Source: Natrinema halophilum
Lineage (GTDB): Archaea; Halobacteriota; Halobacteria; Halobacteriales; Natrialbaceae
Reading direction: 5' to 3'
Assembly: GCF_013402815.2 (NCBI RefSeq)
Contig: NZ_CP058601.1
Location: 2,356,001 to 2,420,000, forward strand
Length of the DNA stretch: 64,000 bases
Within the stretch, counting starts at the first letter, position 1. Each line of letters begins with the position of its first letter. The notes beneath the pieces are model-generated. The model searched no databases. It was not told the origin of the DNA and worked only from the letters and a program-made list of their open reading frames with translations. The translations under genes were made by a program, and so were the position numbers. Of the stretch, positions 55,830 to 61,649 are shown in pieces.

Positions 55830-55885
55830 TCGGTCCCGGATTCGAATCAAGCAGTCATCTGACCTATCTTTTTCAAGGAGAGAAT

Positions 55886-55903
55886 CCCGGCGTTTACGCC
55901 GGG
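55886..55903. repeat. Perfect hairpin in the left end of the TnpB element
   Basis: CCCGGCG pairs with CGCCGGG around a TTTA loop (seven base pairs). Hairpins near the ends are the typical recognition feature of IS200/IS605 elements, which move as single-stranded DNA. A related but less perfect hairpin occurs at 61567-61580 on the other copy. Confidence 0.85.
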
Positions 55904-55948
55904 CGTGAATCCGACGACTCATTCACACACCACCGTCGATGGCAGGCC

Positions 55949-55962
55949 GGATATTTAATACC
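55949..55962 (+). promoter_or_regulatory. Possible promoter word for tnpB
   Basis: The A/T-rich word atatttaatacc lies 41-54 bases before the tnpB ATG at 56003 and is a fair match to a haloarchaeal TATA box. Confidence 0.4.
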
Positions 55963-56002
55963 AATCCGCACTATTAAGTAGGATTGTCTACATAGACTAT
56001 GT

Positions 56003-57331
56003 ATGGCGATTCAGGTCACTCACACCTATGTTGCTACCATTCGCAACCAGCAACAGGTGCAGAGTGATCTGGACTCGCTTGGGTTTGCCGCCGCAAAGCT
56101 CTGGAACATCGCACGCTGGACGTGTGACCGCATCTGGGGTGAAACAGGGACAATCCCTGAGGATGGCCCACTCAAGGCATATCTGAAGAATCACGAACGC
56201 TATGCCGACCGTAATTCTCAGTCGAGTCAGCGAGTCATAGAAGAACTCGCTGAAGCGTTCAGTGGTTGGTATGCTAAACGCCGAAACGGGGACGACCGCG
56301 CAAACCCACCGAAGTATCGGAAGAACGGCGACGATCACCCACGATCGACAGTTACGTTCAAAGAAGACGGGTTCAAACACGACGCAAAGAATAATCGGAT
56401 TCGACTCTCTAAAGGTCGAAATCTGAAAGAACACTGGTCAGACTTCATCCTCTGTGAGATTGAAACCCGACCAGACGTGACGATCGAGAACGTTGGCCAA
56501 GTGAAAGCAGTCTGGAACGATTCTAAAGGCGAATGGGAACTTCACATCGTGTGCAAACACGAAATCGAGGCCGAATCTCCCGGCGACGAAACTGCTGGCA
56601 TTGACCTCGGTATCTCAAACTTCGCCGCCGTCTCGTATTCTACGGGCGACCACGAGTTGTATCCGGGGAACGCTCTCAAGACCGACGAACGGTACTTCGC
56701 TAAGGAGATTGCGAAGTGCAACTCATCTCGCTCGAACAATGCCTTGAGACTCCGCAAGAAGCGTTCTAAGCGTCGGTCACACTACTTACACGCCGTCACG
56801 AAACACATCGTTGCAGAGTGTGTTGAACGAGGTGTTGGGACAATTGCTGTCGGCAACCTCGAAGGCATCCGCGAAGACGACGAGACTGGTGAGGCTCGGA
56901 ACTGGGGCGACCGTGGCAACGAAGGCTTGCACGGATGGGCGTTCGACCGCTTCACGAACTTACTCACATACAAGGCGAAAGCCGAAGGTATCACTGTGGT
57001 CATAGTGAGCGAGCGAGACACGTCGAAGACGTGTTCGCGTTGTGGGCAGAAACGAGACGCCAACCGTGTTGAGCGAGGCTTATACGTCTGTCGTGAGTGT
57101 GAGGCCGTGATGAACGCCGATTCGAATGGTGCGGAGAACATTCGGTGTCGGTTAGACCAAGCAGAAAAGGTAACTCTGAATCCTCGATCTACAGAGGATA
57201 GGAGTAGCGGGCGTGTGGCACGTCCAGTAGTCAACCTGTTCCGTCGTGGAGAATACGACCATAGTCGTGGACAGGGGACGTTCGCTGAACAAGCGAGCAG
57301 CTGCAAACCACAAATATCCCAACTGCGGTAG
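56003..57331 (+). CDS. tnpB: TnpB, RNA-guided endonuclease of an IS200/IS605-type element
   Basis: A 442-residue TnpB. The split RuvC-like nuclease has all three acidic residues: D201 (GIDLGISN), E287 (GNLEG) and D373 (NADSNGAENI). A zinc ribbon C344/C347/C363/C366 (CSRCGQK...CRECE) lies between the second and third. TnpB proteins use a guide RNA made from the element's right end to cut DNA. The scaffold is visible after the stop codon as a stem with two hairpins. Codon use is less GC-rich than in neighbouring genes. With the catalytic residues intact the protein should be active, but this has not been tested. Confidence 0.93.
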   Translation: MAIQVTHTYVATIRNQQQVQSDLDSLGFAAAKLWNIARWTCDRIWGETGTIPEDGPLKAYLKNHERYADRNSQSSQRVIEELAEAFSGWYAKRRNGDDRANPPKYRKNGDDHPRSTVTFKEDGFKHDAKNNRIRLSKGRNLKEHWSDFILCEIETRPDVTIENVGQVKAVWNDSKGEWELHIVCKHEIEAESPGDETAGIDLGISNFAAVSYSTGDHELYPGNALKTDERYFAKEIAKCNSSRSNNALRLRKKRSKRRSHYLHAVTKHIVAECVERGVGTIAVGNLEGIREDDETGEARNWGDRGNEGLHGWAFDRFTNLLTYKAKAEGITVVIVSERDTSKTCSRCGQKRDANRVERGLYVCRECEAVMNADSNGAENIRCRLDQAEKVTLNPRSTEDRSSGRVARPVVNLFRRGEYDHSRGQGTFAEQASSCKPQISQLR

Positions 57332-57416
57332 GGAAGCCTCGCCGTCGTCGGGCTCTGCCCGACTGCCTGAGGGATCTTCGATCCCTCTCCGTTCACGGCG
57401 AGGAGGATGTCACACC
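57332..57416 (+). ncRNA. Right-end RNA of the TnpB element (guide-RNA scaffold)
   Basis: Just after the tnpB stop a nine-base stem (CCTCGCCGT, 57337-57345, with ACGGCGAGG, 57395-57403) encloses two hairpins. GTCGGGC (57347-57353) pairs with GCCCGAC (57357-57363), and GAGGGATC (57369-57376) pairs with GATCCCTC (57380-57387). TnpB guide RNAs end with a scaffold in the element's right end, followed by the guide copied from flanking DNA. The guide would start just after 57413. The same fold recurs in the solo copy at 61.2 kb with different loops and one compensatory change. Confidence 0.75.
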
Positions 57417-57685
57417 GACTCTGACGACGTTTCCGTAAGCCGGAACTCGAACTCGAGTTTCCCATCCGTCTTTACGTTCACACCGCCGAGTTCGTCCGAC
57501 AGTTGCTCTCGTGCTCGAGAACTCGGCTCGACGGTTACGGAGACGCTATTACTGTTTGCGTTGTACGTGATGTTACCGACAGCAACGTCGAAGCCGAAGA
57601 AGTCCGGAACGTCCTCTCTGAGTTGTGTCCGGACGTGGTCGACGTCCGACCGAACGTCAGCCATTTCGTCGTTCAGCGAGCCCAT
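57410..57685 (-). CDS. Hypothetical protein ending at the transposon boundary
   Basis: A 91-residue acidic protein (MGSLNDEMADVRSDVDHVRT...) with a helical N-terminus and a beta-rich C-terminal half (residues ~36-85). No family is recognised. The stop codon at 57410-57412 and the last residue lie at the right end of the TnpB element (shared bases gtgtgacatcc on the minus strand). The element may have trimmed the end of an originally longer gene and supplied its stop codon. The ATG 57683-57685 is used. An upstream frame is basic and unlikely. Confidence 0.6.
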   Translation of the reverse strand: MGSLNDEMADVRSDVDHVRTQLREDVPDFFGFDVAVGNITYNANSNSVSVTVEPSSRAREQLSDELGGVNVKTDGKLEFEFRLTETSSESV

Positions 57686-57873
57686 TTGCAGTGGTAGATA
57701 GTAGCACAGTATAACCGTTCGCCATGAACTGTACAGTGGACCAAACCCGCTCCGGGAAACGCGTATTGACGTCCTCCTGCACCGAAAGGCGCGGGTATGC
57801 GCTCCCACTGTGTCTCACGCTACTTTCGCTCCTCACGACGGCCAGCTACGCCACGCTATACCGGCAGACAGAG

Positions 57874-61025: not shown

Positions 61026-61149
61026 GCGGCTGTCGAATCGTCGCTATACGGGGACCCTGAACGGCCAGAAAAACAGAATCATACCCTGAGAACGGACCGC
61101 TGAAACGAGTGCGACGGCAAAACGTAAGCGAAATGGAGCGGTCAGTGTG

Positions 61150-61232
61150 ACATCCTCCCCGCCGTAAACGGAGAGGGACCGTCGGTCCCTCAGGCAGTCG
61201 GGCGTCGCCCGACGACGACGGGGCTTCCCACC
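61150..61232 (-). ncRNA. Solo right-end RNA scaffold, related to the TnpB guide RNA
   Basis: Read on the minus strand, a closing stem (CCCCGTCGT, 61223-61215, with ACGGCGGGG, 61165-61157, one G-U pair) contains GTCGGGC/GCCCGAC and GAGGGACC/GGTCCCTC hairpins. Compared with the copy at 57337-57403 the first hairpin stem is the same with a different loop (gac against tct). The second stem changes a T-A pair to C-G and has another loop. The pattern supports the fold as an RNA selected for structure. Confidence 0.65.
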
Positions 61233-61327
61233 GCACCGCACGCGGTTGATTTGGGAACCTCGGGTTCGTACACCGACGATATACTGGGAGTGCCACGCCC
61301 CCGTTATCCCTATCCCACACGGGATTC

Positions 61328-61386
61328 GGGAGTATCTTGCTTGTTTTCCGTCGGTATCCGACTCGTTCTCTTGGCAGGATACTCCC
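61328..61386. repeat. Inverted repeat inside the solo element
   Basis: gggagtatcttg (61328-61339) is matched on the other strand by the complement at 61375-61386 (caggatactccc), with one mismatch. The arms are 12 bases and the loop 35 bases. Nothing similar was found in the interior of the TnpB-bearing copy. Confidence 0.7.
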
Positions 61387-61649
61387 AATGAATGCGGACG
61401 GAATCCCGATATTGTCCGATTGTCCCGACATGGGGGCGGATGTACCGCCTCGTGGCGTACCTTTCGTTCCAATTCGATAAAAATTTAATGAGAGTACTCG
61501 ATTCACGCCCGTCCCCAGAACGCTATGCGTTCTGGTGTGCGAACGAGACGCTTCGCGTCACGTCAACGCCGTAACCGGCGGGATTCTCTCGCTGTTTAAA
61601 GATAGAACTCGAGTCCGCATCCACGCTCGAGCAAGCACCTGCGCTCGAG

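Follow-up and report, generated by a model that had tools for sequence, protein, structure and literature searches.

A probably mobile TnpB-only element of Natrinema halophilum with a double-hairpin mini-element inside its right-end hairpin

Fungal mitochondria harbour double-hairpin elements, for which Paquin, Laforest and Lang (2000) is cited there. They are described as adjacent paired hairpins, rich in G+C, and are called potentially mobile in the parts of the literature drawn on here (PMC10085805). Among haloarchaea, Haloquadratum offers two related systems. The PATEs are TnpB-less and have near-terminal palindromes like those of IS605-type transposons, and the SMR-A repeats measure about 110 bp and bear prominent inverted terminal repeats; in the sections of the 2011 Haloquadratum paper considered here, the movement of SMR-A was called enigmatic (PMC3119063). 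As regards the nuclease, an alternative glutamate position before the zinc ribbon is reported for Fanzors and some TnpBs in the relevant part of PMC10711439.

Here we analyse a tnpB locus within a 64,000-nucleotide stretch of the Natrinema halophilum genome, which is referred to as the window. The nuclease belongs to a known kind of TnpB, and the insert found beside it varies the known theme of SMR-A-like short repeats. In the reading that we favour and regard as probable, the locus is a mobile TnpB-only element, the nuclease of which is likely active via D201, E337 and D373, and the right-end hairpin of which has been invaded by a mobile 47-bp unit.

The TnpB protein and its RuvC glutamate

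An uninterrupted reading frame at positions 56003–57331 of the forward strand encodes a TnpB of 442 amino acids. That the gene is intact had been predicted, and domain searches agree: the product matches the Pfam families OrfB_IS605 and Cas12f1-like_TNB and reaches 210.8 bits with the NCBIfam model guided_TnpB (cut-off 100). Pairwise dN/dS values against six close relatives range from 0.084 to 0.125 and support the notion that TnpB is kept under purifying selection. The zinc ribbon, which was also foreseen, is formed by C344, C347, C363 and C366, all of them present in 70 of 70 aligned relatives. Both the domain content and the zinc ribbon are those of an IS200/IS605 nuclease.

The RuvC acids had been assigned to D201, E287 and D373. 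Whereas D201 and D373 are kept in 68 and 69 of the 70 aligned relatives, respectively, position 287 is a glutamate in just 42 of them. In a structure alignment, the glutamate of chain 8j3r (motif MED), which we take to be a Cas12f-type nuclease and which is entered in the table as an IS605 OrfB-domain protein, falls on G284 of TnpB. This canonical column is occupied by serine in 36 and by glycine in 34 of the 70 relatives. The residue E337, located six residues ahead of the first CxxC cysteine of the zinc ribbon (C344), is a glutamate in all 70. E287 was thus rejected as the RuvC glutamate, the canonical site being G284 and the invariant acid E337. A D-E-D triad at the canonical places is absent, and an alternative arrangement with E337 is present. 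The other motifs are spaced in agreement with the second search expression of PMC10711439, and TnpB membership stands because the E337 arrangement occurs in a subset of TnpBs according to the part of that paper used here. Most likely, the active site is complete through D201, E337 and D373, which departs from the earlier assignment and changes the choice of the residue to be mutated in cleavage tests of haloarchaeal TnpB.

Element ends and the right-end hairpin

The ends of the element were recognised by comparison with copies elsewhere in the N. halophilum genome. On the basis of the end consensus and of empty related loci, the element spans about 1545 bp (55869–57413, forward strand). It has a TnpB, near-terminal palindromes at both ends and, as had been stated before, no TnpA frame, and is thus an IS200/IS605 TnpB-only (IS1341-type) element. 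Its left end is abutted by CTATC (55864–55868, forward strand; boundary approximate), a conserved 5-mer and candidate target or TAM, which precedes most of the related left ends, the flanks of which are otherwise unrelated. Elements of this group insert beside a short target and do not duplicate it. The left-end near-terminal palindrome (55886–55903, forward strand) is without an insert here, as judged by direct reading and by the left ends of relatives. In TnpB elements the flank 3' of the right end supplies the guide; by this rule, positions 57414–57433 (forward strand) are the predicted guide source.

In order to look for empty sites, the right flank was compared with 125 genomes of the family. 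Matches were obtained in 51 of these; 30 loci were retrieved, 18 of which were inspected. The element is absent from 17 of these 18, where only some tens of bases separate the left flank from the right; since the related flanks are only about 80% identical, the junction can be placed only approximately. From these comparisons, the element appears to be mobile and not fixed at the locus, and the suggestion that the nuclease is kept for another function is not supported as far as a fixed, co-opted role at this locus is concerned. A small gene on the reverse strand (57410–57701), which is conserved in relatives, terminates exactly at the element, and its stop codon is now built from the terminal bases of the element.

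The right end contains a stem in which 57337–57344 pairs with 57396–57403. This hairpin (57337–57403, forward strand) is uninterrupted in relatives and is taken from the fold to be the conserved guide-scaffold hairpin, here split by a 47-bp double-hairpin insert (57345–57391, forward strand) with stems of 7 and 8 bp and loops of 3 nt. The stem is followed by the terminal AGGATGTCAC (57404–57413, forward strand), in which GGATGT may pair with ATATCC at 57314–57319 as a pseudoknot; among 67 related right ends, 59 match both motifs exactly. The predicted stem with two hairpins just 3' of the stop codon is well borne out, as positions 57331–57412 fold with −42.1 kcal/mol (z = −3.2) and none of 200 shuffled sequences was equally stable.

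The original prediction had regarded this structure as typical of TnpB right ends, which is not the case, as 62 of 67 parsed relatives have a single hairpin. For this comparison 70 of 76 related loci were submitted, and 67 right ends and 62 left ends could be read. The right end measures 35 nt in 61 cases, 34 nt in one and 82 nt (35 + 47) in four (L051, L067, L069 and L090), where the 47-nt unit sits at the identical point of the loop. For the remaining one, L047, the automated parse was wrong and the end is a simple hairpin. Three of the 70 loci were not parsed, among them L070, which carries the insert. In a decayed copy from Natronorubrum thiooxidans (L114), the hairpin is plain and the 3' stretch of tnpB is near-identical to that of the window copy. 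Of the left ends, 48 measure 32 nt and eight have other lengths, one of these (L045) owing to a faulty parse; the other six (L040, L043, L069, L086, L087 and L099) contain a different double hairpin, 51–57 bp long, at a single site within the palindrome. Most probably, then, a double-hairpin mini-element of 47 bp has entered the conserved right-end hairpin of the window copy. What endures of the earlier observation is the TnpB, the two-hairpin fold and the absence of TnpA, but neither E287 nor the reading as a normal right end.

Spread and mobility of the double-hairpin units

In the N. halophilum genome (4.84 Mb, 3 contigs), the first hairpin of the insert occurs at 12 places, all of them inside right-end matches. 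Searches of the 125 family genomes with the hairpin pattern gave 72 matches in 38 genomes (reversed control, 1), reaching 16 of the 29 genera searched. The loop has 3 nt in 71 of the 72 although 2–8 were permitted. Of 30 matches read, 28 lie, by eye, in element ends and two in one dehydrogenase gene; within the 1.5 kb fetched, eight have a TnpB upstream, 20 are without, and two are the dehydrogenase cases. General dispersal of the inserts was rejected after 464,000 bases of N. halophilum (the window and 20 further stretches) had been scanned for double hairpins that are perfect and have 3-nt loops, of which there were two. As both lie in element ends within the window and one shuffle contained none, the inserts are not scattered repeats. 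Viral contigs had no exact match to the hairpin pattern, and Rfam gave no match within the window at gathering scores. Similarity to the right end of the window copy was detected in 15 of 72,556 plasmid records, which, among the matches listed, are all haloarchaeal by name.

A gain is seen in the insert-bearing gene, presumably that of a dehydrogenase E1-alpha-like protein to judge by its motifs. Thirty loci were fetched, 25 of which were readable: 23 are empty, six of these being paralogues of about 70% identity, and two are filled. L218 and L219, the nearest relatives with 95 and 94% identity over the probe, are without the insert. The filled copies (L188 and L189, around position 1500), from two species of one genus, have in common a unit of 45 bp that contains an in-frame TAG, and represent one event. 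Because the gene holds the insert while its closest relatives are empty, the insert is mobile. Filled and empty sites thus show that the 47-bp mini-element moves, and its locations show a preference for the palindromes near the ends of these elements. One of the filled copies is a decaying pseudogene, in which the frame is lost past the insert and 213 gap positions separate it from the other copy. For that reason, removal of the insert at the RNA level or its translational bypass was rejected for this gene; for tnpA (L039), the in-frame TAG of which had likewise prompted the idea, it may still apply.

One might suppose that whole right ends, including the insert, are swapped by recombination and that the insert itself rarely moves. 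L021 and L022 indeed have right ends of 97% identity whereas their TnpBs share 57%. Yet the insert is found in two types of right end, one terminating in GTCAC and the other, seen in L051, in GTCAT; each type agrees with the lineage to which it belongs, and the occurrence of the insert outside right ends, in the dehydrogenase gene, likewise argues against such an exchange, which we consider unlikely.

Pairing within the insert was assessed in 40 distinct 47-mers, filtered for the frame of the unit. Stem positions are paired in 96.2% of cells compared with 91.5% in shuffles, and double-sided changes occupy 22 cells against 6.0, a value that none of 500 shuffles attained. Further pair types number 10 against 8.2, which was reached by 57 of 500. 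Since the first stem belonged to the search pattern, its pairing is partly there by construction, and it is the variation of the second stem that counts. The second stem appears to be maintained by paired changes. The 3-nt loops of the first hairpin are hypervariable, with 17 types in the 40 distinct copies and some triplets occurring along with their reverse complement; beside them, the sequence of the first stem is almost fixed, partly through the search pattern.

A mini-element without TnpB is located in the window itself (61147–61600, reverse strand). It has 454 bp and, by end comparison, the same ends as the TnpB element, and is 96.5% identical to another copy, L026. A double-hairpin scan and reading of the ends placed a double-hairpin insert in its right end (61169–61215, reverse strand), and a pattern search placed a 57-bp double hairpin of a second family in its left-end palindrome (61510–61566, reverse strand). 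This second family has 23 matches in 17 of the 125 genomes, the control giving none. Ten of the 23 are positive in a strict left-end test; among the rest are another type of right end and sites within reading frames. By eye, CG directly precedes the unit in 23 of 23 matches, and the unit ends in CG in 22 of 23. The second double hairpin is unrelated to the 47-bp unit in sequence and has the same insertion habits. At L249, L264 and L251, double hairpins of 57 bp lie within reading frames without a stop and add about 19 residues; we presume that two of the host frames are IS transposase-like and one is TnpB-like.

Of 18 right-end matches in the N. halophilum genome, 14 have no TnpB of this family ahead, one of them, L038, following a broken TnpB of 25% identity. 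In the 95-bp element L031, the left end is joined to the right end around a double hairpin, and L034, for which no right end was found, resembles it by its left end. With 14 of 18 right ends lacking a family TnpB ahead, one of them in the window, the TnpB-less copies could be orphan guide RNAs that arm TnpB in trans at many sites. We demoted this idea, and now hold it to be rather improbable, because the upstream motif ATATCC is present at all four TnpB-linked right ends of the genome but at none of the 12 TnpB-less ones read (12 of the 14, with L037 and L038 left out). It is also at odds with the mere 95 bp of L031 and with L034, which is alike by its left end. Among the 30 family insert loci, 12 also have ATATCC upstream. 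As ATATCC occurs in 0 of 12, the TnpB-less copies of N. halophilum probably keep their ends for movement rather than as guides.

A further reading, the earlier view, is that the two hairpins are the normal guide scaffold of this TnpB and not independent. They do fold stably and are found in four TnpB elements of the genome, three with open frames and one with a TAG. We nevertheless deem this view very improbable, as they are missing in 62 of the 67 parsed relatives and in L114, there beside a near-identical gene stretch, and the presence of the unit inside the unrelated dehydrogenase gene contradicts it.

The distribution of the insert was also mapped onto a quick TnpB tree of 70 rows, to which 84 candidates were reduced by the loss of short or doubly broken sequences, including L067. 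The 13 insert rows need 10 changes, at least three of which are forced by well-supported branches. Shuffled labels need 12.1 on average and 25 of 500 were as low as 10, which indicates some clustering in a biased sample: five of the 13 rows were picked for carrying the insert and four are from N. halophilum itself. For long left ends, present in nine rows, nine changes are required. While the tree count alone does not separate gains from losses, an ancestral insert that was lost many times is the least credible scenario of all, since losses would repeatedly have to rebuild an identical 35-nt hairpin and the dehydrogenase gene displays a gain.

Transposase supply, proposed mechanism and known systems

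It had been suggested that an autonomous copy elsewhere keeps the nuclease. A whole-genome search for the Y1 TnpA family, proposed together with that suggestion, yielded a single locus at E ≤ 0.001, and inspection by eye shows this sole Y1 tnpA to be interrupted: it contains a stretch that has two hairpins and an in-frame TAG (L039:1451–1505). Part of this stretch has three weaker matches elsewhere in the N. halophilum genome. Since the only TnpA is interrupted, the present mobility of the N. halophilum copies is doubtful. From the original interpretation, a selected TnpB with a right-end scaffold survives, and neither upkeep by an autonomous copy nor a co-opted, fixed function at this locus is supported. 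Y1 genes are found in 93 of the 125 family genomes, namely in 33 of 38 insert carriers versus 60 of 87 others (two-sided Fisher test, p = 0.045, counted by hand); five insert carriers have none. The link is weak and may reflect a general load of mobile DNA. At L262, a 57-bp double hairpin sits in a left end of this type, downstream of which an open frame encodes a Y1 TnpA; this TnpA is a candidate transposase source in its genome.

According to our model, the right end would be transcribed as a guide RNA with its 3' flank as the guide. TnpB would cut copies of the site that are without the element, and recombination would then restore the element at the cut. The double-hairpin units may move as folded single-stranded DNA by means of trans-acting enzymes, of which a Y1 (HUH) TnpA is the most likely. 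In elements moved by Y1 enzymes, the bases before the target resemble the end of the element. We infer the Y1 mechanism mainly because the CG before the target matches the CG at the end of the unit; this mode of movement as a whole is suggested by the two hairpins, the lack of inverted terminal repeats and an end like the pre-target bases.

This is a small unit, delimited by filled and empty sites, with an architecture common to at least two sequence families and with the guide-RNA hairpin as the preferred landing place. Two questions thereby become testable: by which enzyme a two-hairpin DNA of some 50 bases is moved, and whether the guide RNA works after its terminal hairpin has been invaded. 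In the open-licence literature searched, no description of a 45–57-bp double-hairpin class in haloarchaea was found. That the units form a distinct haloarchaeal class of this size, in which unrelated sequence families have the same two stems and hypervariable 3-nt loops, and which inserts after CG, is parasitic on the palindromes of TnpB transposons, is moved as folded single strands by the Y1 enzymes of its hosts and tunes the nuclease via the guide hairpin, is a tentative idea to which we give little weight.

With regard to the nuclease, TnpB shares with Fanzors and alternative-glutamate TnpBs, as characterised in the part of PMC10711439 drawn on, the glutamate six residues before the first CxxC and a replaced canonical glutamate. 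Its RuvC1 motif is DLG (201–203), whereas Fanzors and pro-Fanzors have DPG in the description available to us; their combination of DPG and alternative glutamate is therefore not seen here. The element resembles the haloarchaeal IS1341-type elements with omega or sotRNAs, in so far as these are presented in the portion of PMC12558985 used, in combining TnpB with a putative RNA scaffold at its 3' right end that includes a hairpin; it differs in the 47-bp insert within this hairpin.

Like the PATEs, in the account given by the sections of PMC3119063 referred to above, the mini-element of the window is without TnpB and has near-terminal palindromes of the IS605 type. In the same account, SMR-A repeats are tiny and also enter PATEs and IS605-type elements at their near-terminal palindromes, which is where all 12 own copies and 28 of the 30 family loci read are located. 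Whereas SMR-A has about 110 bp and inverted terminal repeats, the units described here are double hairpins of 45–57 bp, the ends of which, by eye, are not inverted repeats. With the double-hairpin elements of fungal mitochondria, as far as their architecture is laid out in the part of PMC10085805 compared, the units have in common two adjacent hairpins and signs of mobility, but their host is archaeal and they strongly prefer transposon palindromes.
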